A stretch of 64,000 nt of DNA from an uncultured Dokdonia sp. (lineage in GTDB: Bacteria; Bacteroidota; Bacteroidia; Flavobacteriales; Flavobacteriaceae). Location of the stretch: NCBI RefSeq assembly GCF_947492535.1, contig NZ_CANLNH010000018.1, positions 1 through 64,000 of the forward strand, written 5' to 3'. Below are positions 6,405 to 56,967 of this stretch, in pieces. Position 1 is the first letter of the stretch. Every line of letters starts with the position of its first letter. A program made the translations under genes and the position numbers. Below the pieces are notes generated by a model. The model saw only the letters and a list, made by a program, of their open reading frames with translations. It was not told where the DNA came from and searched no databases.

Positions 6405-6422
6405 ACGCTTTCGCGAAAGCGT
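6405..6422. repeat. Intergenic copy of the GCTTTCGCGAAAGC palindrome
   Basis: ACGCTTTCGCGAAAGCGT is a perfect 18-bp palindrome between the pentapeptide-repeat gene and the ABC ATPase gene. It is followed by ATAAAG, exactly as in the other intergenic copy at 56950. The exact 14-bp core is 6407-6420. Confidence 0.9.
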
Positions 6423-6457
6423 ATAAAGAAAAAATATATTTCAAGGAAAGCAAGGAG

Positions 6458-7147
6458 TTACTTTTTATTTCTCACATCACTCTCTATAATACCATCTCGT
6501 AAGCGTATGACACGGTGTGCATGTTCTGCAATTTCTTCTTCGTGCGTAACTAGGATAACGGTATTTCCAGCGGCATGAATTTCATCAAACAAGGCCATGA
6601 TCTCTACAGATGTTTTTGAATCTAGGTTTCCTGTAGGCTCATCTGCTAGAATAATAGAAGGTTTATTTACTAAGGCTCTACCTACGGCTACACGCTGGCG
6701 TTGACCTCCAGAAAGTTGATTAGGTTTATGATCCATACGATCTGCAAGACCTACATCAGTAAGTACCTCTTCGGCACGTTTGCGACGATCTGTTTTGGAA
6801 GATCCTGCATATACCATGGGTAAGGCTACATTATCTAACGCTGTAGTACGCGGAAGTAAATTAAATGTTTGAAAAACAAAACCTATTTCTGTATTACGTA
6901 CATCAGCAAGTTCATCATCAGACATGCTACTCACATCACGATTATTGAGAATATAGCTACCAGACGTAGGCGTGTCTAAGCATCCTAAAAGATTCATTAA
7001 AGTAGATTTTCCAGAACCTGATGGCCCCATAAATGCTACATACTCACCTTTATCAATATCTAAATCAATACCCTTAAGTACGTATACAATTTCACTTCCT
7101 AATCGAAAGTTTCTTCGAATATCTCGAATCTTAATCAAATTACTCAT
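6458..7147 (-). CDS. ABC transporter ATP-binding protein, LolD/MacB family
   Basis: This cytoplasmic ATPase belongs to the LolD/MacB/FtsE-type group, which drives lipoprotein release, peptide efflux or envelope remodelling rather than classical import. In the 229-residue protein I see Walker [10 protein letters not shown] (41-49), Q-loop [10 protein letters not shown], signature [10 protein letters not shown] (145-154), Walker B IILADEP (165-171) and the H-loop LVTHEEE. The [22 protein letters not shown] start and GCLDTPTSG loop are typical of this family. Its permease (FtsX/MacB-like) is not in the window, so the substrate cannot be named. Confidence 0.9.
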
Positions 7148-7242
7148 ACTATGTAATTACTGTATTGTTATTTGAGGAATAACAAATGGTTTTGCTATTA
7201 GAAGACTAAAGTAAAGGATTGTTACAAGTTTGCCTATAATAA

Positions 7243-7259
7243 TTTCGCTTAAAGCGAAA
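7243..7259. repeat. 17-nt palindrome related to the TTTCGCGAAA family
   Basis: TTTCGCTTAAAGCGAAA is a perfect palindrome around a central A, in the 261-nt gap upstream of the ABC ATPase. Its arms resemble half of the GCTTTCGCGAAAGC word. I see no other feature in the gap. Confidence 0.5.
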
Positions 7260-7408
7260 AAACATAAAGAATGAATCAATAAGAAAGCATGTTTAATTGT
7301 TATAAACATGCTATTCCCTTTACATAGTCTATAAAAAGTATGATGTAGAAATAATGGGAATCAACCTATTTGAGAATAGAGTTGAAGAGTATTTTGTTTC
7401 CTCAATAT

Positions 7409-8179
7409 TTATAACCTAATAGAAAAATGCTCTTTGTGTTGCTCTTTTCTAAAGAAAACAAAGCCTACCCAGAAACAGTCTATCGTTACTGTAACTTCTG
7501 GAAGTTCTTTAATTTCATTCCACGCCTTTGTCATTTCTGATGACCAATGAATGTCATCAAAAACCCAGACTGTTTCATTGGTAGTAGTTACTACTAAATC
7601 TTGCGCATATTGTAAGGTAGCTTCTCTGGAATGATTGCCATCAAAATAAATGAGATCATAGGTGTTATCTTGAATTTTTTTTATGCTTTCGCTAAACTCT
7701 CCAATGATGATTTCTATATCTGGATGCTTAAAATCCTGAAGATGTGTTTTTGCAATTTTAGCCGTTTCAGGACACCCTTCTAAACTTGTGAGTTGTGCCT
7801 TTCTATGAGATGCTAAAGCAATAGTACCCATACCAAGAGAGGTGCCAATTTCTAATATATGGTTAGGAGAAAAATACTGAACTATACGTTGTATAAGTTG
7901 CATACGGTTTAACGTAGCGCCTGCATATTTGGCAATTTTTTTTACTTTTCTTTTGTTGGACGAAAAGACACGTGATCCAGCGCCATAATCTGTCACTGAG
8001 ATTGTTTGATTGTTTTTTAAAAGTGTATTTCTATACGTTTTTAAAAGTTCATAAGTATCTTTATTTGTGTTGCTTTTGAGACACTTTTTTTCAAATGAAA
8101 ACACAAAAGGGGAGTGTATCCCGTGAAGATGGAAGGTAGTAGGAAGCCATTTAAGATATGTTATGAGTTGGTGTAACAC
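7409..8179 (-). CDS. Class I SAM-dependent O-methyltransferase-like protein
   Basis: A 256-residue Rossmann-fold methyltransferase of the O-methyltransferase/Methyltransf_24 type. The SAM-binding motif I is ILEIGTSLGMGTIALA (about 109-124), followed by an acidic strand end SLEG. A YFDGNHSREATLQY segment (motif equivalent to the catalytic Asp/Asn region of catechol-type enzymes) and FDDIHW follow. The N-terminal HGIHSPFVF motif is common in the Bacteroidota members I know. The substrate is unknown. The gene stands alone, and an eight-copy heptamer array lies 107-162 nt upstream of its start. Confidence 0.8.
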   Translation of the reverse strand: MLHQLITYLKWLPTTFHLHGIHSPFVFSFEKKCLKSNTNKDTYELLKTYRNTLLKNNQTISVTDYGAGSRVFSSNKRKVKKIAKYAGATLNRMQLIQRIVQYFSPNHILEIGTSLGMGTIALASHRKAQLTSLEGCPETAKIAKTHLQDFKHPDIEIIIGEFSESIKKIQDNTYDLIYFDGNHSREATLQYAQDLVVTTTNETVWVFDDIHWSSEMTKAWNEIKELPEVTVTIDCFWVGFVFFRKEQHKEHFSIRL

Positions 8180-8285
8180 TATCTATTGTTTCATTTTTAT
8201 ATTTCTCAAACCTTAAATCCAATATTTATGTTCTCAGTTGTGGTTTATAATTTACAACGAGAGGGAGTTTGTAATTTTTTTTATT

Positions 8286-8341
8286 TTAACACTTAACACT
8301 TAACACTTAACACTTAACACTTAACACTTAACACTTAACAC
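8286..8341. repeat. Tandem heptamer array, eight copies of TTAACAC
   Basis: Eight perfect head-to-tail copies of the 7-mer TTAACAC fill 8286-8341 and end 3 nt beyond the stop codon of the ABC-F gene. The perfection indicates recent slippage, so copy number is likely variable between strains. It lies in the upstream region of the methyltransferase gene, where length changes could alter promoter geometry. Confidence 0.95.
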
Positions 8342-8344
8342 TAG

Positions 8345-10258: not shown

Positions 10259-10441
10259 TGTATGTTGTTTTGAAGGATGAATACAACCTTGCTAAGGGTA
10301 ATTCAAGTTAGTTGTTTTTAGGCGTTAAAATACGCGCTTTTTTGATGTTGCTAAAATACCTAATCTATAGATAGGATTACAAATAATCGCAATTCCTTTT
10401 TAGAAAATAGCAAGACAATATGCGTTAAAGCTCTATGAAAG

Positions 10442-10472
10442 TTTCATTATTAACGATGAACGCCTATATTTG
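10442..10472 (+). promoter_or_regulatory. Probable promoter of the polysaccharide locus
   Basis: TATATTTG (10465-10472) fits the Bacteroidota -7 consensus TAnnTTTG, and a TTTC near-match to the -33 TTTG element lies at 10442-10445, 19 nt upstream. The start codon of the first export gene follows 20 nt after the -7 box. It lies in the 234-nt gap between divergent genes, so it is a good candidate for driving the long plus-strand operon. Confidence 0.6.
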
Positions 10473-10492
10473 CTATTCATAACCTTAACCTG

Positions 10493-11284: not shown

Positions 11285-11287
11285 ATT

Positions 11288-14642: not shown

Positions 14643-15461
14643 ATGAGAAAACAAATCCCTCTTTTTTATTGGTCTTCCAAGGTTTTTGAAAATAAAGCCC
14701 AAGAAAACTATGGAGATATTTTATCTGCTCAAATAGTTTCATGGGTGAGTGGTAAGGAAGTGTCTTTTTATAATGCACCTCATAAAAGAAAAAGTTGGTT
14801 TAAAAAGCCATATCTCATGGCGATAGGAAGTATTATGTCATATACACAAGCCAAAGCTATGGTCTGGGGAAGTGGTATTATTTCTAGAAAAGATCAATTT
14901 TCTAAGGCTAGGTTTTGTGCAGTTCGGGGTCCGCTTTCGCGAAAACGTATACTAGCCCTTGGCTATTCCTGTCCAGAAATATATGGAGATCCTGCTATTT
15001 TATTGCCAGACTATTACCAACCTACCATCGAAAAAAAATACGAATACGGGTTTATTCCGCATTATGTAGATCAAGATATTGTTTCAAAATGGTATGGAGA
15101 AGAGAAAGAGGCTACGGTCTTAAATCTTATTCATGACGATATATTTTATACAACAGATCGTATCTTAGAGTGTAAGAAAGTGATCAGTTCGTCACTACAT
15201 GGGGTGATTGTCGCTCAAACCTATGGTATTCCAGCCATTTGGGTGCAATTTTCAAATAAGTTAAGTGGTGATAATGTAAAGTACGAGGATTATTTTTTAT
15301 CTGTTGATATGAAACCTTATAGCGCTACCTATATAGATCAAAAACAACCGATGTCAACCTATGATACTATCTTTTCTGAAGTAGAAACACTACCAAGTGA
15401 AGAGAAATTAAAAGAAATACGAAATGCGCTTAAACATGCATTTCCAAAAGAGTTTATATGA
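14643..15461 (+). CDS. Polysaccharide pyruvyl transferase family protein
   Basis: A 272-residue protein of the PS_pyruv_trans family, which adds pyruvate ketals to sugars of surface glycans using phosphoenolpyruvate, or in some members acts as a sugar transferase. I see NYGDILSAQIVSW (about 22-34), WGSGII, AVRGPLSRKRILALG (about 93-107), EIYGDPAILLP and the C-terminal SSLHGVIVAQTYGIPAIW. It sits between the exporter permease (gap 4 nt) and ATPase (overlap 4 nt), so pyruvylation may be linked to export. A one-mismatch copy of the palindromic word encodes the LSRKR in the conserved motif. Confidence 0.87.
   Translation: MRKQIPLFYWSSKVFENKAQENYGDILSAQIVSWVSGKEVSFYNAPHKRKSWFKKPYLMAIGSIMSYTQAKAMVWGSGIISRKDQFSKARFCAVRGPLSRKRILALGYSCPEIYGDPAILLPDYYQPTIEKKYEYGFIPHYVDQDIVSKWYGEEKEATVLNLIHDDIFYTTDRILECKKVISSSLHGVIVAQTYGIPAIWVQFSNKLSGDNVKYEDYFLSVDMKPYSATYIDQKQPMSTYDTIFSEVETLPSEEKLKEIRNALKHAFPKEFI
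14933..14946. repeat. One-mismatch palindrome copy in the pyruvyltransferase gene
   Basis: GCTTTCGCGAAAAC differs from the 14-bp word by one base. It encodes LSRKR (residues 98-102) within a motif that is conserved in the protein family, so here the DNA word coincides with a pre-existing protein motif. Confidence 0.7.
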
Positions 15462-25021: not shown

Positions 25022-26023
25022 ATGATCTCCATTATCATCCCATCCTATAACAGAGCGTCCCTTATCAAAGAAACGCTTCAGTCTGTTATATCACAATCTA
25101 GTTCAGATTGGGAATGTATTGTGGTAGATGATGGAAGTACAGATAATACGGTTGCTACTGTTTCCGCTTTCGCGAAAGCGGACGCAAGAATACACCTTTT
25201 AGAAAGAACGAAAGAGTATGCCTCTGGAGGAAATGGCGCACGGCAAATGGGAGTAGATCATGCCAACTATGATTGGGTGATGTTTCTAGATTCTGATGAT
25301 TTACTAGGTTCAGATTGTGTAAAAAATCGCATTGCACTCATAGAAGACACGATAGATCTATTTGTGTTTCATACAGCTTCTTTTAAACAAGAGCTAAAAG
25401 ACACCGATGTATATTGGAATATTTTGCAACAAGGAGAAACAAGTGAAGAATATCTGATACGATTTCTTCGTCAAGATATGCCTTGGCATACCACTGGGGT
25501 GTTGTGGAATAAAGCATTTTTGCAAAAAATAGGGGGATGGAATCAAGAACTCATCGCTTGGCAAGATTGGGAACTTCACGTGAGAGCACTTACGTACAAT
25601 CCACGAATAAAAGCTACTATTGGAAAGGCCGATAATTACTACAGGCGTGATGTTGAAAATTCTATTGCTACAAAAAAACAATCTTTAGCGTACATTGAAG
25701 CAATAAAAAAAGCAATAGCATCTATAGAAAGAAATGTATTAGGAAATAATAATTTAGCGGATGCTAAAGGACATCTCCGATTTTTGATTTATCGTAATTT
25801 GATAGCCTATCCTATCAAGTGGAAACTCATGAAAATGCCTTTTCAATTAGTTAGATCAGGATTCAATTTTCAGAGCGTATCTAAGACTAGATTTATAGGT
25901 GCCTACTGGAAAGAACGTATATATGCGATTACAATTATAAAACGAATTTTAAAGAACAAACTTAAACTTGACTATTATAAACGCATGTATCCAGTAACTA
26001 CTTTTTTGAGAAAACGATTATAA
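25022..26023 (+). CDS. GT2-family glycosyltransferase
   Basis: A 333-residue GT-A enzyme with ISIIIPSYNRASLIKETLQS at the N-terminus, CIVVDDGSTDNT (36-47), MFLDSDDLL as DxD region and WHTTGVLWNKAFLQKIGGWNQELIAWQDWEL as acceptor-side motif. The palindromic word encodes SAFAKA at residues 48-53, inside the helix after the DDGSTDNT loop. It sits 12 nt after one glycosyltransferase and 2 nt before an acyltransferase, so it is part of the same operon. Confidence 0.9.
   Translation: MISIIIPSYNRASLIKETLQSVISQSSSDWECIVVDDGSTDNTVATVSAFAKADARIHLLERTKEYASGGNGARQMGVDHANYDWVMFLDSDDLLGSDCVKNRIALIEDTIDLFVFHTASFKQELKDTDVYWNILQQGETSEEYLIRFLRQDMPWHTTGVLWNKAFLQKIGGWNQELIAWQDWELHVRALTYNPRIKATIGKADNYYRRDVENSIATKKQSLAYIEAIKKAIASIERNVLGNNNLADAKGHLRFLIYRNLIAYPIKWKLMKMPFQLVRSGFNFQSVSKTRFIGAYWKERIYAITIIKRILKNKLKLDYYKRMYPVTTFLRKRL
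25166..25179. repeat. Palindromic word in a GT2 gene (frame SAFAKA)
   Basis: An exact GCTTTCGCGAAAGC, extended to an 18-bp palindrome CCGCTTTCGCGAAAGCGG at 25164-25181. It is read as SAFAKA (residues 48-53). Confidence 0.95.
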
Positions 26024-35778: not shown

Positions 35779-36476
35779 TGAAAGTACTAGGGCTTATACC
35801 TGCTCGAGGCGGAAGTAAAGGAATTCCTGGTAAAAACAAAAAACTACTAGGAGGGAAGCCTTTATTACAATATACCATAGCCGCAGGATTACAAGCCTCA
35901 CAATTAGACACCTTAATTTTTTCTTCAGAAGATAAAGAGTTAATGGCGCTTGCCAGTGATTTAGGCGTTTCTGTTCCTTTTACACGTCCACAAGAATTGG
36001 CCGAAGATCGTTCTGGGTCATTAGGTGTGGTACAGCATGCATTGCGATATATGCAAGCACAAGGAAAGCAGTATGATGCTGTATGTTTATTACAGGTAAC
36101 CAATCCTTTTCGTAGTGCAACTATGATTGATGATGCTGTTTCCGCTTTCGCGAAAGCAAACACAGATTCATTAGTCTCTGTATTAAAAGTACCTCATGAA
36201 TATAATCCGCATTGGGTATTTGAAGCCTCAGAAGATGGAAAACTACATATTGCTACAGGCGAAAAAGAAATCATAAAAAGGAGACAAGATTTACCTGATG
36301 CATATATCCGTGATGGTGCTATTTATATTACAAAAAGTGACGTGTTGCTAGAGCAAAATTCGCTGTATGGTTCAAGTATTAGTTATATAGAATCTGATCC
36401 TGAATGGCATGTGAATATTGATACGATGGAGGATTGGAAACTAGCAGAAGAACTCGTTAAAAAGTTTCAAGACTAA
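35778..36476 (+). CDS. neuA: CMP-nonulosonate (acylneuraminate) cytidylyltransferase NeuA
   Basis: It activates the 9-carbon acid with CTP to give the CMP-sugar donor. The 232-residue protein begins VLGLIPARGGSKGIPGKNKK (3-22), the nucleotide-binding signature, and continues with FTRPQELAEDRSGSLGVVQHAL, LLQVTNPFRSATMIDDAV and PDAYIRDGAIYITK, all typical. No C-terminal esterase domain is present. The palindromic word encodes SAFAKA at 122-127, in a helix after DDAV. Start and stop codons overlap its neighbours by 1 nt on both sides. Confidence 0.94.
   Translation: MKVLGLIPARGGSKGIPGKNKKLLGGKPLLQYTIAAGLQASQLDTLIFSSEDKELMALASDLGVSVPFTRPQELAEDRSGSLGVVQHALRYMQAQGKQYDAVCLLQVTNPFRSATMIDDAVSAFAKANTDSLVSVLKVPHEYNPHWVFEASEDGKLHIATGEKEIIKRRQDLPDAYIRDGAIYITKSDVLLEQNSLYGSSISYIESDPEWHVNIDTMEDWKLAEELVKKFQD
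36144..36157. repeat. Palindromic word in neuA (frame SAFAKA)
   Basis: An exact GCTTTCGCGAAAGC preceded by TCC, read as SAFAKA (residues 122-127). Confidence 0.95.
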
Positions 36477-38179
36477 TGTGTGGTATTGCCGGAATTATAG
36501 GAAATAAAGCTTCACAAACACAACTCGATGCTATGCTTCAAGCACAAACGCATCGAGGTCCTGATGATACAGGAAGATATATTGAAGACGGAGTAGCTTT
36601 AGGACATAATAGATTGGCTATTATAGATTTATCTTCAGAAGCAAATCAGCCTTTTTTTTCTCAGGATAAGCGATATATCATTGTTTTTAATGGAGAGATT
36701 TATAACTATATAGAACTCAAAGAGGAATTAGCAGCTGCATATTCTTTTACAACACACTCAGATACCGAAGTTTTATTAGCAGCATATCAAAAGTGGGGAG
36801 AGGCATGTCTTTCTAAACTTAATGGAATGTTTGCCTTTGCGATTTGGGACACCCAAGAGCAGTACCTTTTTGCTGCTAGAGACCGTTTTGGTGTAAAACC
36901 GTTTTATTATACCATTGTACATGATACCTTTTATTTTGCTTCAGAAATAAAAAGTTTGTTTGCTGCAGGAATTTCTAAATCACCCAACGAGTCTGTTTGG
37001 GCAAATTACTTTGCGTTTGGAAGTTATGGAATGCCTGAAGAGACATTTTGGGAAGGCATACAACAATTGCCAGGAGGTCATTCTTTAACATTGAATACGT
37101 CATTACCTGAAATACAAAAATGGTATCATTTTGAAGAGGAGGTAAAGAAATATAAAACTGCACTTTCTTTTGAAGAAGTTAAGTCGCAGTATTTACAATT
37201 GTTAGATCATAGTATTCAACTTCGTTTTAGAGCAGATGTGCCTATAGGATTTAATGTAAGTGGAGGATTGGATAGTTCAGCTTTGCTTGCTTTGGTAAAT
37301 CGGTTGGATGATGGAGAGAATATAGAAGCTTTTACATTTTATACAGGAGATGATCGATACGATGAACTTCCTTGGGTAAAAGGACTTATTTCACATACTA
37401 AAAATCCATTAACAAAAGTAAAACTGAAGGTAGATGACTTGGCATCTCTTGCAGAAACAATGAGTGCTCAACAAGATGAACCTTATGGAGGTGTACCTAC
37501 GGTAGCCTATGGTGAACTTTTTAAAGAAGCACGTTCCAAAGGAGTGAAGGTGCTCTTAGATGGTCAAGGAATGGATGAGCAATGGGCAGGTTATGATTAT
37601 TATACGAAGAATTCTAATAGTGTGATTCAAGGGGTGTCCAAATCTCCGTTTCGAACTTCTGTACTGGCTGAGGAATTTTTCGCGAAAGCAAAAAAACCAA
37701 CATACCCAACACCATTTGATGATCGTGTCTTAAATCTACAATACCGAGATTTATTTTACACGAAAATCCCAAGAGCATTGCGTTTTAATGATCGTGTGTC
37801 TATGCAATCTAGTACGGAGTTAAGAGAGCCTTTTTTGGATTATAGATTGGTAGAGTTTGCATTTGCACAGCCCTTAGCGTATAAAATTCATGAAGGTATT
37901 CAGAAATATGTATTGCGATCTATAGTCTCTGAATATCTATCAGATACGATTACGTACGCACCTAAACGTCCTTTACAAACACCGCAACGGGAATGGCTAG
38001 CAGAAGACCTTAAAGATTGGGTGTCTGAGACGTTAGACGTCTTTAAAGAGCATCCTTGGTTTGAGTATGAAAAATTAAAAGAAGAATGGGACGCCTATAT
38101 AAACGGAGATCAAGATAGTAGTTTTCATATTTGGCAATGGGTCAATACAAGCTTATTAGTATCTTCGCTTCGTCATTAA
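36476..38179 (+). CDS. asnB: Asparagine synthase-like amidotransferase (glutamine-hydrolysing)
   Basis: A 567-residue class II glutamine amidotransferase. Cys2 of MCGIAGIIG is the glutaminase nucleophile, and AQTHRGPDDTG, LGHNRLAIIDLS and VFNGEIYNY belong to that domain. The synthase domain has the PP-loop NVSGGLDSSALLAL (about 262-275). Inside sugar loci such proteins often amidate uronic acids or other carboxylates instead of making asparagine. The 1-nt overlap with neuA strongly suggests a glycan role. A two-mismatch copy of the palindrome encodes FFAKA (401-405). Confidence 0.85.
   Translation: MCGIAGIIGNKASQTQLDAMLQAQTHRGPDDTGRYIEDGVALGHNRLAIIDLSSEANQPFFSQDKRYIIVFNGEIYNYIELKEELAAAYSFTTHSDTEVLLAAYQKWGEACLSKLNGMFAFAIWDTQEQYLFAARDRFGVKPFYYTIVHDTFYFASEIKSLFAAGISKSPNESVWANYFAFGSYGMPEETFWEGIQQLPGGHSLTLNTSLPEIQKWYHFEEEVKKYKTALSFEEVKSQYLQLLDHSIQLRFRADVPIGFNVSGGLDSSALLALVNRLDDGENIEAFTFYTGDDRYDELPWVKGLISHTKNPLTKVKLKVDDLASLAETMSAQQDEPYGGVPTVAYGELFKEARSKGVKVLLDGQGMDEQWAGYDYYTKNSNSVIQGVSKSPFRTSVLAEEFFAKAKKPTYPTPFDDRVLNLQYRDLFYTKIPRALRFNDRVSMQSSTELREPFLDYRLVEFAFAQPLAYKIHEGIQKYVLRSIVSEYLSDTITYAPKRPLQTPQREWLAEDLKDWVSETLDVFKEHPWFEYEKLKEEWDAYINGDQDSSFHIWQWVNTSLLVSSLRH
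37676..37689. repeat. Two-mismatch palindrome copy in asnB
   Basis: TTTTTCGCGAAAGC keeps the core TTTCGCGAAAGC and is read as FFAKA (residues 401-405), the same frame as the SAFAKA copies. Confidence 0.6.
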
Positions 38180-44939: not shown

Positions 44940-46079
44940 ATGCATATTGCCTTTCTTACTCCAGAATACCCACATCCACGTATACAACGCGCAGCGGGAA
45001 TAGGGACTAGTATTAAAAATCTTGCTGTTGCGCTTTCGCGAAAGCATATAAAAGTAACCGTATTTGTATATAGCCAATCTGAAGATGTCGTATTGGAAGA
45101 TCAAGGTGTTACTTTACATCTTATCAAACATAAAAACTACCGAATAGGAGGATGGTTTTTATATAGAAAACACATTAATCGTTATATAAATAAGGTTGTA
45201 AAACAAACCAATATAACGGCAATAGAAGCTCCAGATTGGACAGGCATTACTTCATTTATGAAATTTCAAATTCCTGTAGTGATAAGGCTGCATGGATCAG
45301 ATACATACTTTTGTCATTTAGAAGGAAGATCTCAAAAAAAGAAGAATTATTATTTTGAGAAAAAAGCATTGACAAACGCAAATTATATTCTATCAGTAAG
45401 TGTTTTTGCAGCTGAAAAGACCGTTTCATTATTTGGAATAAAAAAAACAATTACGACCATACATAATGGAGTAGATGTTACAATGTTTACACCAGACCAT
45501 AGTAAGATCGTGCCTAAGTCTATTTTATATTTTGGAACGATAATTCGTAAAAAAGGAGTACTTGCACTAGCCGAAGCTTTTAATAAAGTAATTCAAGAAG
45601 AACCTGAAGCTCAACTGACATTTATAGGTAAGGATGTTACAGACGTAAAAACAGGGAGTAGTACAATAAAATTGATACAATCTATATGCAGTAAAGAGGC
45701 ATTAGCTCAAATAACATATACATCTCAAATCCCATATAGTGAAGTCGCAGATGCTATTAGAAAAGCTCAAATAGTATGCCTTCCAAGCTACGCAGAGGCA
45801 TTTCCTATGACTTGGCTGGAGGCGATGGCATTAGAAAAAGCGATGGTAACATCAGATATTGGATGGGCAAAAGAGTTAATGGTAAACGGAGAAACAGGCT
45901 ATATTTCAGATCCTGATGATACACAGAAAGTATCAAAAGCAATCGTTACTTTGATACAAGATATGGACCTTTCAAGAAAAATGGGTACACAAGCGCGCAA
46001 ACGTATTATATCAAATTTTACTCAAGACGAAATCGCAGAAAAGAATATCAAGTATTATAAACGTATTACTTCTGTATGA
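44940..46079 (+). CDS. GT4-family glycosyltransferase
   Basis: A 379-residue GT-B enzyme with IAFLTPEYPHPRIQRAAGIGTSIKNLA at the N-terminus, EAPDWTGITSFM, VVIRLHGSDTYFCHLEG, ILYFGTIIRKKGVLALAEAF as the donor-domain start and the motif LPSYAEAFPMTWLEAMALEKAMV. The palindromic word encodes LSRKH (residues 32-36) in the first helix, exactly where GT4 enzymes have the ALxxxGHxV segment. It opens the second plus-strand run and overlaps the next gene by 4 nt. Confidence 0.9.
   Translation: MHIAFLTPEYPHPRIQRAAGIGTSIKNLAVALSRKHIKVTVFVYSQSEDVVLEDQGVTLHLIKHKNYRIGGWFLYRKHINRYINKVVKQTNITAIEAPDWTGITSFMKFQIPVVIRLHGSDTYFCHLEGRSQKKKNYYFEKKALTNANYILSVSVFAAEKTVSLFGIKKTITTIHNGVDVTMFTPDHSKIVPKSILYFGTIIRKKGVLALAEAFNKVIQEEPEAQLTFIGKDVTDVKTGSSTIKLIQSICSKEALAQITYTSQIPYSEVADAIRKAQIVCLPSYAEAFPMTWLEAMALEKAMVTSDIGWAKELMVNGETGYISDPDDTQKVSKAIVTLIQDMDLSRKMGTQARKRIISNFTQDEIAEKNIKYYKRITSV
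45032..45045. repeat. Palindromic word in a GT4 gene (frame LSRKH)
   Basis: An exact GCTTTCGCGAAAGC followed by ATATAAAAG, read as LSRKH (residues 32-36) in the first helix of the enzyme. Confidence 0.95.
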
Positions 46080-47617
46080 TCTTTTTATATCACATACACA
46101 ATACTGTAAAAACGATAGTAGATGATCAGAATATACCTATCTCTATACAAGAAGAAAAGCCTACTCAAGCTTTACTAGCTATTGCTAAAAATTATCCAGA
46201 AGAATGGATTGTTTGGTGTCATTTTGATAATAAAGATATATTGAATACAGAGGTATTTTCAAATCTATTACATCATAAAAGACGAATGATAAGTAATGGA
46301 GATGCTTCATCACCTTTTTTATCACCATCTATAGGCTATATAGAAGACAGTCCCTTTTTAAAAATAAATACAAGTACTACATACCCTACTTGGTGTATGA
46401 GTAGCGCTGCTGGAGCCATACATGCCAGTGTTTTACTAGCAATAGGAAACCAGATTACTGTTACTAGAGGTTTTGATTACTTTTTAAATTCGCTTGCGCG
46501 AAAAGGACAGACATCGGGATTACTCTGTTATCATGAGCCGTTGTTACTACATTCAGACCCCCAAAAAAGTACACTAAGAAAAGCAAGCTTACACAAGCAG
46601 TATGCTTTTGTGAAAGAACATTTTAAGACATCATGGCTTTTTTTCTTATGCATATCTCAAATGAGATATGAGAAAAAATTTCCACTCATTGCATTTGTAT
46701 ATGCATTATTATTTGTGAAGAGAAATACACCTCATTTAGACATCGCTAAGATTCCGATACAATCCTCGAAAACGGTGTTAGATATATTTGAAGTAGATGT
46801 GGTTATTCCAACTTTGGGCAGGAAGAAATATTTATATGATGTACTTAACGATTTTTCTAAACAAACGATTCTTCCTAAGAAAATTATAATTGTAGAACAA
46901 AATCCTGACCTAAATAGCACCTCTGAATTGGGGTATATAACTTCAGAAGAATGGCCGTTTTCTATAGAGCATCAGTTCATCCATCAAACAGGCGCTTGTC
47001 ATGCACGTAATCTTGCATTGTCAAAAATAAGCTCAGATTGGGTTTTCTTCTTTGATGATGATATTAGGTTTGACACTGATATTTTAGAGAAAATTGAAAA
47101 TGCTATTAAAGAAACTGGAACTCATTGTATTAATATATCTTGCTTACAAGAAGGAGAAGTAGAAAAACACAGCACTTATAAACAATGGAAGACATTTGGC
47201 TCTGGATGTTCTGTAGTACATAAAGACGTCGTTGAAAATACATCTTTTGATATGGCATTAGAACACGGATATGGAGAAGATGTAGATTTTGGCATGCAAA
47301 TACGTACACTTGGATATGATGTGATTTATGCACCAGATATTCAGATTAAGCATCTAAAAGCACCCATAGGAGGCTTTAGAAGTTTACCTGTATTCCCTTG
47401 GGATGATGATAAAATACGTCCAAAACCTGCACCTCAAATTCTTTATCATCGTATAAAAAATACCACTGAAGAGCAGTTAAAAGGGTATAAATGGATACTT
47501 TTCTTTAAATATTATTTTAATCAAGATATCAAAAATCCTTTTTCTTATATTTCATACTTCAAGAAGGCTTGGAAAAACAGTACTCATTGGGCTAAAAAAT
47601 TACCTCTAGATGCATAA
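46076..47617 (+). CDS. Large GT2 glycosyltransferase with N-terminal extension
   Basis: A 513-residue protein. The C-terminal half (about 240-480) is a clear GT-A domain: VDVVIPTLGRKKYLYDVL, IIIVEQNP, GACHARNLALSKISSDWVFFFDDDIRFD and GYGEDVDFGMQIRTLGYDVIY. The first 235 residues contain WIVWCHFDNKDILN, SPSIGYIEDSPFLKI and SSAAGAIHASVLLAIG. They may be a degenerate second GT2-like domain, but I cannot show this. A three-mismatch palindrome copy (46492-46505) encodes SLARKG there. It overlaps the next gene by 8 nt. Confidence 0.8.
   Translation: MIFLYHIHNTVKTIVDDQNIPISIQEEKPTQALLAIAKNYPEEWIVWCHFDNKDILNTEVFSNLLHHKRRMISNGDASSPFLSPSIGYIEDSPFLKINTSTTYPTWCMSSAAGAIHASVLLAIGNQITVTRGFDYFLNSLARKGQTSGLLCYHEPLLLHSDPQKSTLRKASLHKQYAFVKEHFKTSWLFFLCISQMRYEKKFPLIAFVYALLFVKRNTPHLDIAKIPIQSSKTVLDIFEVDVVIPTLGRKKYLYDVLNDFSKQTILPKKIIIVEQNPDLNSTSELGYITSEEWPFSIEHQFIHQTGACHARNLALSKISSDWVFFFDDDIRFDTDILEKIENAIKETGTHCINISCLQEGEVEKHSTYKQWKTFGSGCSVVHKDVVENTSFDMALEHGYGEDVDFGMQIRTLGYDVIYAPDIQIKHLKAPIGGFRSLPVFPWDDDKIRPKPAPQILYHRIKNTTEEQLKGYKWILFFKYYFNQDIKNPFSYISYFKKAWKNSTHWAKKLPLDA
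46492..46505. repeat. Three-mismatch palindrome-like sequence
   Basis: GCTTGCGCGAAAAG retains the CGCGAAA core of the word and is read as LARKG, similar to the LSRK frame. It may be a decayed copy. Confidence 0.3.
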
Positions 47618-48638
47618 CAGGAAACTGAGTTTAATTGTTTGTACCTACATGCGACCAGTAGCGGTGTGTACATTACTAGATAGTGTCCAGTTGCAATCAA
47701 AATACCCAGATGAGATTTTGATTATTGATGGTTCTACAGATAATGCTACCGAAGACCGCTTTCGCGAACCTGCCTCGCCGGCAGGCAGGAGCGTATATAA
47801 AAACCTTACCTATTATAAAGTACCTCCAGCGCATAGAGGGCTGACAAAGCAACGTAATTATGGAATTGATCGGGTAGGAGATGCCATCGAAATTGTATGC
47901 TTCCTTGATGATGATATTGTGTTAGAACCTACTTATTTTGAAGAAATACTTACCACCTATCAAGAATATCCTGAAGCATTAGGAGTAGGCGGTTATATTG
48001 TTAATGAGGTTTCGTGGGAAAAAGTAGAACAACCCTTTACACCGGCAATCAATCAGTTTTATTATGATGGCTATGTGCGCTCTGATGGTTCTAGATATGT
48101 CTTGCGAAAGAAGTTAGGGCTAGATGCTAATAGACCTCCGGGATTTTTACCCACCTTCTCTCATGGAAGATCGATTAGTTTTTTACCTCCTTCAGGAAAA
48201 ACGTATCAAGTAGAACAATTAATGGGAGGTGTCGCTTCTTATAGAATATGTGCCTTAAAGTCTCAGAAATTTTCTGAATATTTTGAAGGATATGGACTCT
48301 ATGAAGATGCAGATTATACATTGCGTTTGTCAAAAAAAGGACATCTGTATATAAATACAAATGCACAATTACACCATTACCATGATCCTGGAGGAAGACC
48401 TAATCATTTTAAATATGGCAAAATGGTACTCCGTAATGGATGGTATATATGGAGAAGTAAATACGAAAACCCTACTTTGAAACAACGGCTTTTATGGAAC
48501 CTCACCGCTTTTGTGCTAACATTGGTAAGAGTAAGTAATGCAATACGAGGTCAAGACAAAAAAGCAGCACTTAACGAAAGTTTAGGTCGAATTTATGGAT
48601 GGTTAAGCCTTATATTTAACAAACCAAAACACATATAA
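47610..48638 (+). CDS. GT2-family glycosyltransferase interrupted by nested repeats
   Basis: A 342-residue GT-A enzyme: LSLIVCTYMRPVAVCTLLDS, ILIIDGSTDNAT, HRGLTKQRNYGIDRVGD, VCFLDDDIVLE and YFEGYGLYEDADYTLRLSKKG. The palindromic word is present at residues 50-53 and 61 (RFRE...S). It is split by a 21-nt GC-rich palindromic insertion that adds seven residues (PASPAGR, 54-60) without shifting the frame. The insertion lies in a surface-type loop after the nucleotide-binding motif, so the enzyme may still work. Confidence 0.88.
   Translation: MHNRKLSLIVCTYMRPVAVCTLLDSVQLQSKYPDEILIIDGSTDNATEDRFREPASPAGRSVYKNLTYYKVPPAHRGLTKQRNYGIDRVGDAIEIVCFLDDDIVLEPTYFEEILTTYQEYPEALGVGGYIVNEVSWEKVEQPFTPAINQFYYDGYVRSDGSRYVLRKKLGLDANRPPGFLPTFSHGRSISFLPPSGKTYQVEQLMGGVASYRICALKSQKFSEYFEGYGLYEDADYTLRLSKKGHLYINTNAQLHHYHDPGGRPNHFKYGKMVLRNGWYIWRSKYENPTLKQRLLWNLTAFVLTLVRVSNAIRGQDKKAALNESLGRIYGWLSLIFNKPKHI
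47758..47792. repeat. Palindromic word split by a second element
   Basis: GCTTTCGCGAA (47758-47768) and AGC (47790-47792) rebuild an exact GCTTTCGCGAAAGC if the 21 bases between them are removed. The restored reading would be EDRFRESVYK. Confidence 0.9.
47769..47789. repeat. 21-nt GC-rich palindromic insertion element
   Basis: The element begins CCTGCC and ends GGCAGG, with arms CCTGCC-CGCCGGCAGGCAGG that are nearly self-complementary around a central CGCCGG. It is much richer in GC than its surroundings. It sits exactly inside a copy of the 14-bp word, is a multiple of three, and encodes PASPAGR. Confidence 0.88.
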
Positions 48639-48643
48639 AATCC

Positions 48644-49189
48644 ATGCGATTTACAGAAGACCTCATAAAGTATAAGAAGTATAGTGGCAAGTCTACACTC
48701 ATACTTTTAATGACCCAGCAAGGGTTGTGGGCTTTGTGTTGTTATCGCTTTTTTAATAGTATTTACAGAAGTAAATTACCGAAACCTATTAAAAGTATTC
48801 TTCTTTTATGGGGGGTGTTTTCTCAAAAGTATATAGAAATTGTTACTGGCATTCAATTACCCTACAGCGCAACAGTAGGACATAAGTTCTATATAGGACA
48901 TTTTGGAGGCATTATTATCAATGCCAATGCTGTGATAGGTGATAATTGCAATATATCACAAGGAGTTACTATAGGAGTAAGTGGAAGGGGAGCACATCGA
49001 GGTGTTCCTGTAGTAGGAGATAATGTATATATTGGAGCAAATGCAACACTAGCTGGAGATATTACTATAGGAAATAATGCAGTGATAGGCGCTAATTCTT
49101 TAGTAGTAAAAGATGTAGAAGAGGCAACTACAGTAGTTGGGGTTCCAGCGAAGGCAGTAAGTACTAATGATTCAAAAGGATATATTTGA
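48644..49189 (+). CDS. Hexapeptide-repeat O-acetyltransferase (CysE/LbH family)
   Basis: A 181-residue left-handed beta-helix acyltransferase of the serine acetyltransferase-like group. It has GHKFYIGHFGGIIINANAVIGDNCNISQGVTIGVSGRG (about 85-122) and then VGDNVYIGANATLAGDITIGNNAVIGANSLVV, with the hexapeptide I/V-G-x4 repeats and catalytic His in the GHFGGI region. In a glycan locus it probably acetylates a sugar using acetyl-CoA rather than serine. It is followed by a GT4 gene with a 1-nt overlap. Confidence 0.87.
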   Translation: MRFTEDLIKYKKYSGKSTLILLMTQQGLWALCCYRFFNSIYRSKLPKPIKSILLLWGVFSQKYIEIVTGIQLPYSATVGHKFYIGHFGGIIINANAVIGDNCNISQGVTIGVSGRGAHRGVPVVGDNVYIGANATLAGDITIGNNAVIGANSLVVKDVEEATTVVGVPAKAVSTNDSKGYI

Positions 49190-50298
49190 TGCGCTTTCTA
49201 GTTATCACATTAGCACCTACACTTTTAGAAAATAGCGCGTATTATTCGTATGCACCCTATGTAAAAGAAATGAATCTTTGGTTTTCGCATGTAGATCAGG
49301 TAACTATAATTTCTCCTACGTCTTATGAAAAAAAGCTATTAAAAGCTCCTTTTGACAGAAAAGATATAGACGTTATTTCTATACCCGCTATTAGTTTTGG
49401 AACAATCACTGCTATTTTTAAATCAATTATTGCAATTCCTATAATCGTTTTTCGATTATTTAAAGCAATGCAACAAGCAGATCATATTCATTTACGTTGT
49501 CCGGCGACCATAGCTTTAATAGCTTCGGTGGTGCAATTGTTTTTTCCATCGAAGAAAAAAACAGTAAAATATGCAGGTAATTGGAGTCCAAAAGCAAAAC
49601 AACCTATAAGTTACAAGCTCCAAAAATGGATTGTAGGAAATGAGTTTTTGACCAGAAACATGCAAGTATTGGTTTATGGTAATTGGCCGAATCAAAGTAA
49701 AAATATCAAATCCTTTTTTACAGCTACTTATAGAGATGATGATGTACCTACTATTAAGACACCCATTTTTGAGAATCCAATCACAATTCTCTTTGTAGGG
49801 AGTTTATCTCCAGGGAAACGACCTTTGTATGTTTTAGAATGGGCAAAAGCTTGCCTTGATCAAGACTTAGATATACACTTAGATATATATGGTGAAGGTC
49901 AAGAAAGAGAACTACTTGAAAAATATCTGACATCTCATAAGCTACATACTAAGGTTATATTACATGGTAATCAACCTACAGAAGTCGTTCAACAAGCATA
50001 TAAAAATGCTCACTTTTTGATACTACCTTCTAAGTCAGAAGGATGGCCTAAAGTGATTGCAGAGGCTATGTTTTGGGGAGTAATTCCACTAGTGACTCCA
50101 ATTTCCTGTGTCCCGTGGATGGTAGGAGAAGGGACAAGAGGAGTATTATTAGATATGGATGTGAGTAAGGATGTTTCCGCTTTCGCGAAAGCGTTAAAAG
50201 ACAAAAAGCAATTAGAGAAAATGGCTGTAAATGGACAGCAATGGTCTCATCAATATACGTTAGATACGTTTGAAAATTCAATAAAAGAATTGCTATGA
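49189..50298 (+). CDS. GT4-family glycosyltransferase
   Basis: I use the ATG at 49189 (TGATG overlap with the previous stop), giving 369 residues, MRFLVITLAPTLLE... The donor domain begins ILFVGSLSPGKRPLYVLEWA (about 201-220) and has LPSKSEGWPKVIAEAMFWGVIPL, the E-x7-E-type motif. The palindromic word encodes SAFAKA at 330-335 in the C-terminal helix after MDVSKDV. It overlaps the next gene by 4 nt. Confidence 0.88.
   Translation: MRFLVITLAPTLLENSAYYSYAPYVKEMNLWFSHVDQVTIISPTSYEKKLLKAPFDRKDIDVISIPAISFGTITAIFKSIIAIPIIVFRLFKAMQQADHIHLRCPATIALIASVVQLFFPSKKKTVKYAGNWSPKAKQPISYKLQKWIVGNEFLTRNMQVLVYGNWPNQSKNIKSFFTATYRDDDVPTIKTPIFENPITILFVGSLSPGKRPLYVLEWAKACLDQDLDIHLDIYGEGQERELLEKYLTSHKLHTKVILHGNQPTEVVQQAYKNAHFLILPSKSEGWPKVIAEAMFWGVIPLVTPISCVPWMVGEGTRGVLLDMDVSKDVSAFAKALKDKKQLEKMAVNGQQWSHQYTLDTFENSIKELL
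50178..50193. repeat. Palindromic word in a GT4 gene (frame SAFAKA)
   Basis: CGCTTTCGCGAAAGCG, with the exact 14-bp core at 50179-50192, preceded by TTTC and read as SAFAKA (residues 330-335). Confidence 0.95.
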
Positions 50299-52729: not shown

Positions 52730-53699
52730 AAACGTTACTGTAACTACGATAGAAACACTTAGTACATCACTACGTGAAGAAGGATATGATGTCATTGTTG
52801 TATCATGCATTAAGAATAAAATAGGCCGTTTTTTGGATATGATTTCTGCTGTACGTAAACATAGAAAACATATTGATATCGTGCTGATAGATACCTATAG
52901 TACTACAAACTATTGGTATGCAGTATATGTAGCTAAACTCTGTAGATTATATAAAATACCATATATCCCAATCCTTCATGGAGGGAATTTGCCAGAACGT
53001 ATTAGGAGAAGTGTTTCTAGTGCTAGAAAACTTTTTCAAAATGCATATATAAACATCGCCCCATCTCATTATTTGATGGAAGCTTTTCAAAAAGAAGGAT
53101 ATACAAACATACGTCATATTCCAAATACAATAGATCTTTCTAAATACCCTTTTAAAGAAAGAGAAAGATATACACCTAAACTATTATGGGTACGTTCTTT
53201 TGCAACTATCTATAATCCTATGATGGCGCTTCAGGTTTTACAAGAACTTCAAAAAACCTATCCAGAAGCAACATTAACCATGATTGGGCCTAAAAAAGAT
53301 GAAAGTTTTGATCGTTGTTCCGCTTTCGCGAAAGCGCATAACCTTCCAGTGACATTTACAGGGAAATTATCGAAGGAAGCATGGATCTCACTTGCAGCCT
53401 CTCATGATATATTTATAAATACGACCAATTTTGATAATACCCCTGTTAGCATTATAGAAGCAATGGCTTTAGGACTCCCTGTCGTATCAACAAACGTAGG
53501 TGGTATTCCGTTTTTAATAAAAGATACACAGAACGGTCTTTTATGTCCGCCAGAAAATATAGGAACTTTTGTAGAAAAACTTATATTATTGATTGATAAT
53601 ACTGATATTGCACGTGAAATATCAGTACAGGCAAGAGAAAGTGTTCAAAATTTTGATTGGAGACTTGTCAAAATTTCTTGGAACGAGGTGCTCTCCTAA
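52683..53699 (+). CDS. GT4-family glycosyltransferase
   Basis: A 338-residue GT-B enzyme with KKVLYIGNALTHKNVTVTTIETL, VLIDTYSTTNYWYAVYVAKLC, IPYIPILHGGNLPERI and the donor motif NTTNFDNTPVSIIEAMALGLPVVSTNVGG. The palindromic word encodes SAFAKA at 213-218, in the helix preceding VTFTG. The first 47 nt overlap the end of the membrane protein gene, an unusually long overlap. Confidence 0.88.
   Translation: MKRKKVLYIGNALTHKNVTVTTIETLSTSLREEGYDVIVVSCIKNKIGRFLDMISAVRKHRKHIDIVLIDTYSTTNYWYAVYVAKLCRLYKIPYIPILHGGNLPERIRRSVSSARKLFQNAYINIAPSHYLMEAFQKEGYTNIRHIPNTIDLSKYPFKERERYTPKLLWVRSFATIYNPMMALQVLQELQKTYPEATLTMIGPKKDESFDRCSAFAKAHNLPVTFTGKLSKEAWISLAASHDIFINTTNFDNTPVSIIEAMALGLPVVSTNVGGIPFLIKDTQNGLLCPPENIGTFVEKLILLIDNTDIAREISVQARESVQNFDWRLVKISWNEVLS
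53321..53336. repeat. Palindromic word in a GT4 gene (frame SAFAKA)
   Basis: CGCTTTCGCGAAAGCG, with the exact 14-bp core at 53322-53335, read as SAFAKA (213-218) in the helix before the VTFTG strand. Confidence 0.95.
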
Positions 53700-53735
53700 A
53701 AAAATATAATATCTTTACCCTAACTAACCCCCTTT

Positions 53736-55130: not shown

Positions 55131-55136
55131 CATACA

Positions 55137-56354: not shown

Positions 56355-56418
56355 GAGGTAAAGATAGGAAGCAAAAATAAATTAGCAATAGGTCTATTCA
56401 TAATGTATTTATAAAAAT

Positions 56419-56445
56419 AAAAGCCGAGTGATGAGCTCGGCTTTT
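56419..56445 (-). terminator. Intrinsic terminator of the small exported protein gene
   Basis: AAAAGCCGAG (56419-56428) and CTCGGCTTTT (56436-56445) form a perfect 10-bp stem with a 7-nt loop. Read on the minus strand the T-rich tail continues into ATTTTTAT. It lies 26 nt after the stop of the gene at 56472. Confidence 0.9.
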
Positions 56446-56471
56446 ACAAATGATAATTTAATGTGTACTAC

Positions 56472-56810
56472 TTAAACGGCGGGTACAATACGCACAGGTA
56501 CAACCCACTCCTCTCCAGTTTTTAGTGTGTTTAATTTTTTGTAATTAAGTCTACTTTTAATAAAAGCATCTACACTTTCGTTTTTTGTGTCTACATTAAT
56601 AACAACAAGTTCTTTTTTGTCATTCACCATAAAAGTCACTTTTGCTTTAATGTCTTCATTAATCTCCATTTCTGGATTTTTAAGCAATTCTGCAATTTGA
56701 GTAGTAACATCTACTTTTTTTTCTTCAACTTTAGGAGTTGAGTTGTTTGCAAATACGGTTGTTCCTGCTGCTAATAAAATAGCTACTACATACATTTTTA
56801 GATTTTTCAT
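56472..56810 (-). CDS. Small exported protein, function unknown
   Basis: A 112-residue protein with an N-terminal signal peptide (about 1-21, MKNLKMYVVAILLAAGTTVFA with an A-x-A-type cleavage before NNS). The mature part has INEDIKAKVTFMVNDKKELVVINVDTKNESVDAFIKSRLNYKKL, an alternating strand-rich domain, and ends TGEEWVVPVRIVPAV. The second half resembles the TonB-C-like fold of small periplasmic proteins in Bacteroidota, but I cannot assign a function. A strong terminator and an array of phased TTAAC boxes upstream suggest it is individually regulated. Confidence 0.75.
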   Translation of the reverse strand: MKNLKMYVVAILLAAGTTVFANNSTPKVEEKKVDVTTQIAELLKNPEMEINEDIKAKVTFMVNDKKELVVINVDTKNESVDAFIKSRLNYKKLNTLKTGEEWVVPVRIVPAV

Positions 56811-56893
56811 AATTGTTCGTTTTTAAAGATTAAAAGATTGATATACCAAAGAGACGAACATTTCTTGTATTTCGTTACATAGTCATGCGTAGT

Positions 56894-56929
56894 TTAACCA
56901 TTGTTTAACGATTATTAACGGTGGTTAAC
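56894..56929. promoter_or_regulatory. Four helically phased TTAAC boxes
   Basis: TTAAC begins at 56894, 56905, 56915 and 56925, so the spacings are 11, 10 and 10 nt, one DNA turn apart. The outer boxes also make an inverted repeat (TTAACCA 56894-56900 with TGGTTAA 56922-56928). The cluster lies 84-119 nt upstream of the small exported protein start, where an activator would bind. It is suggestive of a transcription-factor array binding one face of the helix. Confidence 0.6.
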
Positions 56930-56949
56930 GTTCGGGTAATTGTTTAATA

Positions 56950-56967
56950 ACGCTTTCGCGAAAGCGT
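56950..56967. repeat. Intergenic copy of the GCTTTCGCGAAAGC palindrome
   Basis: ACGCTTTCGCGAAAGCGT is a perfect 18-bp palindrome identical to 6405-6422 and, like it, is followed by ATAAAG. It lies between the small exported protein gene and sucC, 20 nt from the TTAAC boxes. Confidence 0.95.

Follow-up and report, generated by a model that had tools for sequence, protein, structure and literature searches.

The window, by which we mean the whole 64,000-nt stretch of an uncultured Dokdonia sp. (genome G000) analysed here, contains a polysaccharide cluster with genes for glycosyltransferases, a NeuB-family protein and a cytidylyltransferase. Within these genes and in spacers of the window lie copies of a palindromic 14-mer, GCTTTCGCGAAAGC, which a preliminary description of this DNA had reported as massively over-represented. 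All nine exact copies listed there are present, as are the near-copies and the split copy (Table 1). The palindrome extends beyond the core in several cases, as had been noted, with lengths of 14, 14, 14, 16, 16, 18, 20, 20 and 22 bp for the nine copies. Allowing up to two mismatches, the window holds 12 matches, compared with 0.10 expected from 100 dinucleotide shuffles (maximum 1).

Table 1. Copies and near-copies of GCTTTCGCGAAAGC in the window (ORFs on the reverse strand are marked with a minus sign; "read" gives the translation of the word).
Feature	Position	Strand	Details
Full ~50-bp site	6389..6438	.	core 6407-6420, 20-bp palindrome; between ORFs 5249-6337(-) and 6458-7147(-)
Full ~50-bp site	25148..25197	.	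core 25166-25179, 20-bp palindrome; in glycosyltransferase ORF 25022-26023, read AFAKA
Full ~50-bp site	30936..30985	.	core 30954-30967, 22-bp palindrome; in glycosyltransferase ORF 30268-31350, read LSRK
Full ~50-bp site	34355..34404	.	core 34373-34386; in NeuB-family ORF 33627-34628, read LSRK
Full ~50-bp site	36126..36175	.	core 36144-36157; in cytidylyltransferase ORF 35778-36476, read AFAKA
Full ~50-bp site	45014..45063	.	core 45032-45045; close to start of glycosyltransferase ORF 44940-46079, read LSRK
Full ~50-bp site	50161..50210	.	core 50179-50192; in glycosyltransferase ORF 49186-50298, read AFAKA
Full ~50-bp site	53304..53353	.	core 53322-53335; in glycosyltransferase ORF 52683-53699, read AFAKA
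Full ~50-bp site	56934..56983	.	core 56952-56965, 18-bp palindrome; between ORFs 55137-56354(-) and 57090-58280(-)
Near-copy, half-word type	14933..14946	.	1 mismatch, one half intact
Near-copy	35414..35427	.	2 mismatches
Near-copy	37676..37689	.	2 mismatches
Weak near-copy	46492..46505	.	3 mismatches; may be chance
Split word	47758..47792	.	interrupted by a 21-base GC-rich imperfect palindrome, 47769-47789; in glycosyltransferase ORF 47610-48638

The scale of the over-representation goes beyond the original claim. A genome-wide exact count gave 827 copies of GCTTTCGCGAAAGC in the 4.86 Mb of G000, and the density in the polysaccharide cluster is near the genome average. As the copies are dispersed across genes, spacers and the whole genus, they do not stem from one duplicated locus. 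All 18 Dokdonia genomes analysed carry 369-905 copies each; 288-857 were counted in each of the 23 genomes analysed of a second genus, most probably Nonlabens, and 408 in one genome of a third. Among 299 sampled genomes of the family, the word is absent from 238 and occurs 1-19 times in another 56. The iterated word is restricted to few genera and marks two of them together with one genome of a third. One-mismatch forms amount to 7-16% of the exact-copy frequency: 400 kb of G000 contain 68 exact words and 11 with one mismatch (one word per 5.9 kb), whereas 107 and 8 were counted in 400 kb of G299 (one word per 3.7 kb). In the literature searched, no mention of GCTTTCGCGAAAGC or CTTTCGCGAAAG was found, and broader topical searches likewise gave none among the matches listed.

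Other palindromes of 8-14 bp did not reach comparable density in small samples (19-60 kb) of 26 genomes that belong to none of the three word-rich genera, giving no evidence of dialects; samples L256, L259, L262, L273, L280 and L286 (1-5 kb) were omitted from this survey. Dialect candidates of 14 bp from G006 and G144 were rejected, as a further 40 kb yielded no additional copies. TGATGGTACCATCA was seen six times in G032 and TCACACTAGTGTGA twice in G211 (20 kb).

The word forms the centre of a larger site. It spans about 50 bp and consists of a palindrome of 14-22 bp and, 3' of it on either strand, a G-poor arm of about 15 nt. In 175 sites from two genomes, 254 of 350 arms (73%) contain at most one G, compared with 24% of random 15-mers of G299; the window itself shows this more weakly, with 9 of 18 arms. 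G-poor arms accompany coding and intergenic sites alike and are also found at Nonlabens sites. The site is symmetric and the information in the arms drops off at about +25 (3 of 206 sites near stretch ends were excluded from the G299 profile). On the strand that a Chi-like mechanism would turn into the 3' tail, the arms are C-poor and GT-rich. The (A/G)TATAAA tail described previously is seen locally but is not general, as CGCTTTCGCGAAAGCGTATAAA occurs only twice per strand in 400 kb of G000 with 68 words, and it was rejected as part of the motif; the general rule beside the word is a G-poor stretch 3' on each strand. Deamination of C was discarded as the source of the arms, because in its simple form it does not account for the accompanying increase of C on that side. 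The coding frame explains part of a 3-base periodicity of A seen in the arms.

Intergenic DNA, which makes up 7.3-7.5% of positions, holds 27 of 68 words in G000 and 59 of 107 in G299, with a peak 0-20 bp past stop codons; the enrichment is weak in G305 (4/20) and G190 (2/13). This peak would suit a transcription terminator or regulatory element. Such a role is scarcely credible, however, since many words (41 of 68 and 48 of 107) are genic, occupying all three frames and spread over the full length of the genes, and an Rfam search of the window returned nothing at gathering score. Words within genes are translated as AFAKA, RFRES or LSRK.

Between closer species, an exact word was kept at most 80 bp from its expected place for 16 of 18, 16 of 19 and 16 of 21 words with homologous flanks, whereas by simple arithmetic about 4-12% of average 14-mers are expected to stay unchanged at 80-86% flank identity. 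These counts leave aside words whose flanks had no homologue in the DNA sampled, which for G000 versus G299 applies to 63 of 68. In six of six species pairs, the arms are less conserved than DNA farther out; the word identity of 1.00 in this profile is given by construction and is not evidence. Few places are shared across genera, and none of the 13 G299 words with homologous flanks has a word there in G190. A few species differences resemble insertions.

A mobile or REP-like palindrome put in place by a transposase, one of the roles first suggested, would be in agreement with such differences, with Y1 transposases in both Nonlabens genomes tested and with the 8 of 31 alignable intragenic words that sit at an alignment gap relative to word-poor relatives. 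This role is disfavoured because the other 23 of these words are gap-free and because a RAYT (Y1_Tnp) transposase is absent from nine of ten Dokdonia-type genomes tested, namely G000 and eight more (G206 has one); G190 also lacks it. The places kept between close species and the decay of words by point substitution, observed between species, likewise argue against transposition, which we consider very improbable.

The word had also been compared with HIP1 of cyanobacteria. As a description the likeness holds, both being exact palindromes found genome-wide (according to the accessible part of PMC4390886). It is nevertheless improbable that a solitary DNA methyltransferase together with mismatch repair makes and keeps the word: 9 of 15 word-rich genomes have no member of the C5 methyltransferase family, the N6/N4 family is over the cut-off in only 2 of 15, and neither of these two families was found in G000. 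Moreover, HIP1 is not known to have a ~50-bp armed site or a spacing rule.

This spacing rule concerns close pairs. Only 4 pairs of GCTTTCGCGAAAGC less than 1 kb apart were observed in G299, compared with 29.8 expected from an intergenic-weighted null, and 1 compared with 11.5 in G000; the scarcity is similar in other stretches and species. The distances between words in G299 have their mode at about 3 kb. Along the G299 chromosome, words show no positional trend, with a variance-to-mean ratio of 0.46 over 40 segments of 20 kb. One AT-rich segment of this size in G299 holds 1 word, and two others (GC 0.285 and 0.329) hold 4 each.

Regular spacing with an exclusion of about 1 kb, the lack of a chromosomal trend, a symmetric site whose arm information ends near +25 and a word presence independent of pilus genes are consistent with a nucleoid-protein role, as had been proposed: a dimer of a genus-specific nucleoid or segregation protein would bind about 800 evenly spaced 50-bp sites and set loops or compaction. 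PMC1939737, in the part available, cites Karlin's even spacing of uptake sequences and describes them as spaced less evenly than a compaction signal should be; the even spacing of GCTTTCGCGAAAGC therefore also fits an intracellular architectural site. The role survives as a candidate, with objections. Just one ParB_N protein is encoded by 12 of 13 word-rich genomes (G300 has two), and all 17 word-poor genomes have ParB_N as well, which rules out an additional Noc-like ParB as the binder; a candidate binding protein was not found. DNA-binding proteins as a rule accept mismatched sites, whereas mismatched words are rare here. Altogether, we regard an architectural role as possible, if on the unlikely side.

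A recombination-site role, suggested at the outset as well, also survives as a candidate. Here, the palindrome would stop an AddAB-type helicase-nuclease whichever side it came from, and RecA would be loaded on the GT-rich 3' tail provided by the arms. The word densities in G299 and G000 resemble that of Chi, RecA prefers GT-rich DNA and AddB-like PDDEXK proteins were detected in 17 of 17 genomes tested. In addition, two related Nonlabens phages (71 kb) contain neither the word nor TTCGCGAA; a BLAST search of plasmids and phages with a 30-base word query gave no match, which is weak evidence because such a query barely reaches the detection limit. On the other hand, known Chi sites are 5-8 nt long, non-palindromic and read as single strands, the six word-poor relatives tested possess the same enzyme family, and a Chi-like stop would not predict the scarcity of close pairs. 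We therefore judge this explanation unlikely.

Of the surviving roles, the uptake-like signal named in the preliminary description fits best. Its observed basis is the abundance and exactness of the word, the arms, the even spacing, the kept places, the absence from two related phages and the restriction to few genera. We tentatively propose, with confidence somewhat short of even, that GCTTTCGCGAAAGC forms the centre of a symmetric own-DNA mark of ~50 bp in Dokdonia and Nonlabens, which functions in the manner of a DNA uptake sequence. The palindrome, together with the G-poor 3' arms, would be read in an all-or-none manner by a dimeric receptor or processing enzyme, and own DNA would preferentially be taken in or recombined where each exchanged fragment carries one site or more. 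Every such event would rewrite decayed sites, so that the word would stay exact and spread to tolerant positions behind stop codons and in permissive protein stretches, while another site less than about 1 kb away would add no gain.

What does not fit the uptake-like signal is the usual pilus motor, which is missing from 8 of the 13 word-rich genomes tested. T2SSE/PilB/PilT ATPases (PF00437) exceed the family cut-off in only five of them; G000 has none over the cut-off and two sub-threshold matches. Word counts are no lower in genomes without these ATPases. The small number of places shared across genera and the weak intergenic enrichment in G305 and G190 also speak against this role. The data on foreign DNA point both ways: the two phages lack the word, but two AT-rich 20-kb segments of G299 hold four copies each and the density in the polysaccharide cluster of the window is near average. 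A ComEC-family protein is present in 17 of 17 genomes tested, including all six word-poor ones, and thus does not discriminate. To our knowledge, no competence is known in Dokdonia or Nonlabens, and narrow literature searches showed none among the matches listed. On the best reading, uptake would run via a putative non-pilus machine. We see about an even chance that the site represents a new self-mark of the Bacteroidota, ~50 bp long and symmetric with an exclusion of ~1 kb, built of an exact palindrome and of arms that nearly lack one base on one strand, which is kept without a type IV pilus motor or C5 and N6/N4 methyltransferases by a putative recognition machine whose imprint is visible in protein sequences.

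Few bacterial lineages are, as far as we know, known to carry such iterated words, and it is disputed whether these are maintained by drive, selection or repair. Dokdonia and Nonlabens offer a sharp case: they are marine and partly cultured, and their word is nearly exact, evenly spaced and written into proteins. As relatives within the same family lack the word, pull-down and comparison with them offer a way to search for the recognising protein. A further use of GCTTTCGCGAAAGC would be to spot DNA of Dokdonia or Nonlabens origin in other bacteria to which it has been transferred.

Among known systems, HIP1 (GCGATCGC) is likewise an exact palindrome repeated very many times throughout whole genomes, but has 8 bp instead of a 14-20 bp core with arms; close pairs of GCTTTCGCGAAAGC are rare and G000 has no C5 or N6/N4 methyltransferase. 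REP/RAYT elements are also short palindromes in many copies, whereas GCTTTCGCGAAAGC is genic in 41 of 68 cases, mostly gap-free, and nine of ten Dokdonia-type carriers have no RAYT. Noc/parS-type sites are likewise palindromes with TTTC...GAAA halves; the spacer of GCTTTCGCGAAAGC is different, its sites are far more numerous and show no trend along the chromosome, and 12 of 13 carriers have no extra ParB. With Chi, the word has in common its density, the absence from two phages and a GT-rich strand toward the site, but it is longer (14-22 bp), palindromic and confined to few genera, even though the enzyme family is also present in word-poor relatives.

Known uptake sequences are non-palindromic and have more one-mismatch forms. 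In contrast to the DUS of Neisseriaceae and the USS of Pasteurellaceae, GCTTTCGCGAAAGC is palindromic and symmetric with two G-poor arms, its density is lower, and pilus motor ATPases are missing from 8 of 13 carriers tested. The accessible part of Treangen et al. (2008, PMC2397512) describes the Neisseria DUS as strictly conserved in permissive core regions, absent from recently acquired genes and spaced in accordance with conversion fragments, with new copies too diverged to have arisen by point mutation. Like GCTTTCGCGAAAGC, DUS and USS are limited to certain taxa, occur in hundreds to thousands of copies in genes and intergenic regions, are conserved above their flanks and are evenly spaced, and they are scarcer in strain-specific DNA (PMC7811141, PMC1939737 and PMC2397512, as far as accessible). 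Finally, the USS consists of a core plus flanking bases, just as the GCTTTCGCGAAAGC site consists of a core plus arms.

All nine exact copies of the word and the near-copies listed in the preliminary description are present in the window, and the over-representation claimed there held, with 12 sites matching at two or fewer mismatches where 0.10 were expected. The genome-wide count it called for gave 827 copies in the genome of the uncultured Dokdonia sp. (G000; 4,863,283 bases, 73 contigs, of which C18 supplies the window as its positions 1-64000); the word pattern read backwards, our control, had none. A strand-bias test is inapplicable because the word is palindromic. The density in the window (nine per 64 kb) is close to the genome mean of one per 5.9 kb despite the polysaccharide-cluster content: nine of the ten ORFs scanned with Pfam were glycosyltransferase, NeuB, cytidylyltransferase or pyruvyl-transferase genes, each with a word, split word or near-copy. 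The NeuB-family and cytidylyltransferase genes suggest a nonulosonic-acid sugar (see table).

High counts were found in five of 299 family genomes: G000, another genome of its genus (G206, 857), two of genus g11 (G010, 578; G242, 664) and one of genus g191 (G190, 408). The next-highest counts were 19, 17 and 16; 56 genomes had 1-19 copies and 238 had zero. Within the genera, all 18 genomes examined of the window's genus (g1) carried 369-905 copies and all 23 examined of g11 carried 288-857. We infer that g1 is Dokdonia and g11 Nonlabens. In named genomes, the 20-bp form matched at least 103 stretches; among the 80 matches listed by title, 63 were from Dokdonia, 12 from Nonlabens, three from Flavobacteria bacterium BBFL7 and one each from Muricauda sp. 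TY007 and a Flavobacteriaceae MAG. By ClpX identity to G000, G190 (88%) is close to Dokdonia, and g11 (82%) is not closer than the word-poor genera tested (82-85%).

The low counts of other genera were frequently grouped in short clusters. Two such stretches, from G215 and G087, were read. The one of genome G215 (L473) shares 88.6% identity over 2.1 kb with a stretch of Muricauda sp. TY007 (L314), and its segment, with an ORF of ~1070 amino acids, is 95% identical to one in G101 (L032). A word pair separated by 933 bp is common to G101, G078, G215 and G087, and the G087 stretch matches a word-poor stretch (L463) of the Dokdonia-type genome G299 at 79% identity across 2.8 kb. Judged by these alignments, the segments in G215 and G087 look like DNA transferred in one direction or the other.

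The site is nearly invariant: 400 kb of G000 held 68 exact words versus 11 one-mismatch forms, and 400 kb of G299 held 107 versus eight, all 42 neighbours summed. The same G000 sequence (contig C1, L059-L078) also contains 16 one-sided half-words by CGCTTTCGCGA, which may be asymmetric sites or sites in decay. Extended, the consensus reads TACGCTTTCGCGAAAGCGTA. Outside it, the 3' flank of either strand has little G until about +25 and a near-normal share beyond. Mean G at +11..+25 versus +27..+40 was 0.070 versus 0.159 in G000, 0.067 versus 0.144 in G299 and 0.052 versus 0.139 in Nonlabens G242 (18 sites), with a weaker contrast in G190 (0.177 versus 0.250, 13 sites). At most one G was present in 254 of 350 arms of G000 and G299 versus 24% of random G299 15-mers, and the rule is true of intergenic (n=86) and coding (n=89) sites of both genomes; 9 of the 18 arms in the window satisfy it. 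Read inward to the centre, both strands are rich in G+T and poor in C. This GT-rich 3'-tail geometry lends some weight to a Chi-like reading, in which the word would be a recombination site.

Using a simple ORF caller, we found 27 of 68 words in G000 and 59 of 107 in G299 to be intergenic, versus 7.3-7.5% of random positions. Smaller samples gave 11/19 (G302), 12/21 (G304) and 8/18 (G242), and low shares in the small samples of G305 (4/20) and G190 (2/13). Words pile up 0-20 bp after stop codons (G000, 15 versus 4.9 expected; G299, 26 versus 9.9) and avoid the last 10 bp upstream of start codons (0 versus 1.9; 0 versus 4.3). Intragenic words use all three frames, yielding the peptides AFAKA, RFRES or LSRK; some lie in recognisable conserved genes that, from reading the sequences, we take to encode RNase HII, a RadC-like protein and an ABC ATPase.

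Neighbouring words are rarely close. With the coding/intergenic preference retained in the null, adjacent words less than 1 kb apart numbered one versus 11.5 expected in G000 and four versus 29.8 in G299. Under a uniform null, the deficit was 3 versus 19.2 in 20 further G299 stretches, 0 versus 3.8 in G302, 1 versus 4.7 in G304, 1 versus 4.2 in G305 and 0 versus 3.5 in G242; in G190 it was below significance (0 versus 1.8, P = 0.13). The interval CVs, 0.745 in G000 (P = 0.004) and 0.725 in G299 (0/3000), are those of words falling at random outside dead zones of 1.5 kb and 1 kb, respectively, and the modal interval in G299 is 3.0-3.5 kb. Forty 20-kb windows of G299 (20 adjoining) averaged 5.15 words with a variance/mean of 0.46, and the 20 spread ones had no trend (quarters 23, 26, 23 and 27). 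Such spacing lends some weight to a reading in which the word would have an architectural role. One of the longest word-free gaps of G299 contains a 4951-codon open frame (see table).

Among words with homologous flanks, we scored a place as kept when an exact word lay no more than 80 bp from the predicted position. This was so in 16/18 cases for G302/G304, 16/19 for G302/G299, 16/21 for G304/G299 and 4/5 for G000/G299, where the sample offered no homologous flank for the other 63 of 68 words. The values were 0/13 for G299/G190 and 2/7 for G000/G190. By arithmetic, about 4-12% of 14-mers are expected unchanged at 80-86% flank identity. In conservation the arms fell short of DNA 240-500 bp away in all six species pairs, the difference ranging from 0.01 to 0.13 (0.78 versus 0.83 and 0.60 versus 0.73, for instance), indicating that their composition, not their sequence, is preserved. 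Thirteen of 14 Dokdonia-type genomes carry the word upstream of clpX, as do both Nonlabens genomes, at 114 bp; this region lacks it in G305, G190 and 13 word-poor genomes. Losses occurred partly by point substitution, and some species differences are short stretches replaced or inserted. From 281 intragenic words, some of them contributed by one gene in more than one species, we obtained 31 alignments with word-poor genera that span the word (six at only 25-36% identity, several within one stretch, L266); 23 were gap-free nearby and eight gapped.

A second GC-rich palindrome, CCTGCCTGCCGGCAGGCAGG with variants, lies inside the word at two places in G000 and adjoins a half-word at another, as if a small element preferred the word or its hairpin as target. 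In G190 it sits within tandem tRNA 3' halves (T-arm and acceptor end). A longer repeat opening with the half-word TTTCGCGAAATCGAA... includes it in two of three copies. Separately, a 20-kb stretch of genome G032 (L277) contains TGATGGTACCATCA six times, possibly a repeat gene.

Coordinates of repeats and other features
Feature	Genome	Position
Second palindrome inside word	G000	window 47769-47789; C1 near 278807 (L072)
Second palindrome adjoining half-word	G000	C1 near 296369 (L073)
Tandem tRNA 3' halves with second palindrome, behind tRNA-Gly and tRNA-Thr genes	G190	L401 about 9150-9290; L251 about 16850-16990
Longer repeat, three copies	G000	C1 near 158523 (L066); near 199345 (L068); near 389499 (L078)
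Perfect tandem array, 8.1 copies of TTAACAC, adjoining ORF 8345-10258(-)	G000	window 8286-8342
NeuB-family and cytidylyltransferase genes	G000	window 33627-36476
Open frame without word	G299	L094 5125-19980

No machine family tested tracks the word. Y1/RAYT transposases were found in G206 and both Nonlabens genomes, and none in nine of ten Dokdonia-type genomes or in G190. Of the word-rich genomes, 12 of 13 encode a single ParB_N protein, as do 13 of 17 that are word-poor; the remainder have two. T2SSE ATPases exceeded the cut-off in 5/13 word-rich and 2/17 word-poor genomes, with none in G000 or G299. Nine of 15 word-rich genomes had no C5 methyltransferase, and an N6/N4 methyltransferase family was above cut-off in two of 15. 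AddB-like nuclease and ComEC were each present in 17/17 genomes, six of them word-poor. The search covered chosen protein families rather than complete gene sets, and any protein outside these families may be the recogniser.

The Nonlabens phages P12024S and P12024L carry neither the word nor TTCGCGAA in 71,352 bases, where about 14-16 words would be expected at the density of G242, from which that of the phage host may differ; with most of the gene map common to both, the two phages amount to little more than a single observation. Three words lie in the 11.3 kb of a stretch from an IMG/VR record (L150).

Our literature search, beyond whose reach most subscription papers lay, found no published mention of the word or its 12-base core, and a term search of the accessible part of the HIP review by Elhai (PMC4390886) returned neither 'Flavobact' nor 'Bacteroid'. 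Our leading reading, at somewhat less than even odds, is that the word is a self-DNA signal that would act like an uptake sequence via another machine. Going by the available portions of Treangen et al. (2008, PMC2397512), it resembles the Neisseria DUS in exactness, even spacing, tolerant positions, places kept with fast-evolving arms and absence from the two phages; for USS, the portions consulted of PMC1939737 and PMC7811141 describe regular spacing, with a lower density in DNA that is strain-specific. Unlike DUS and USS, however, the site is symmetric, its arms follow a single-base rule and the pilus motor is missing from most word-rich genomes tested; since this pilus feature was tested for and not found, we do not class the word with either.
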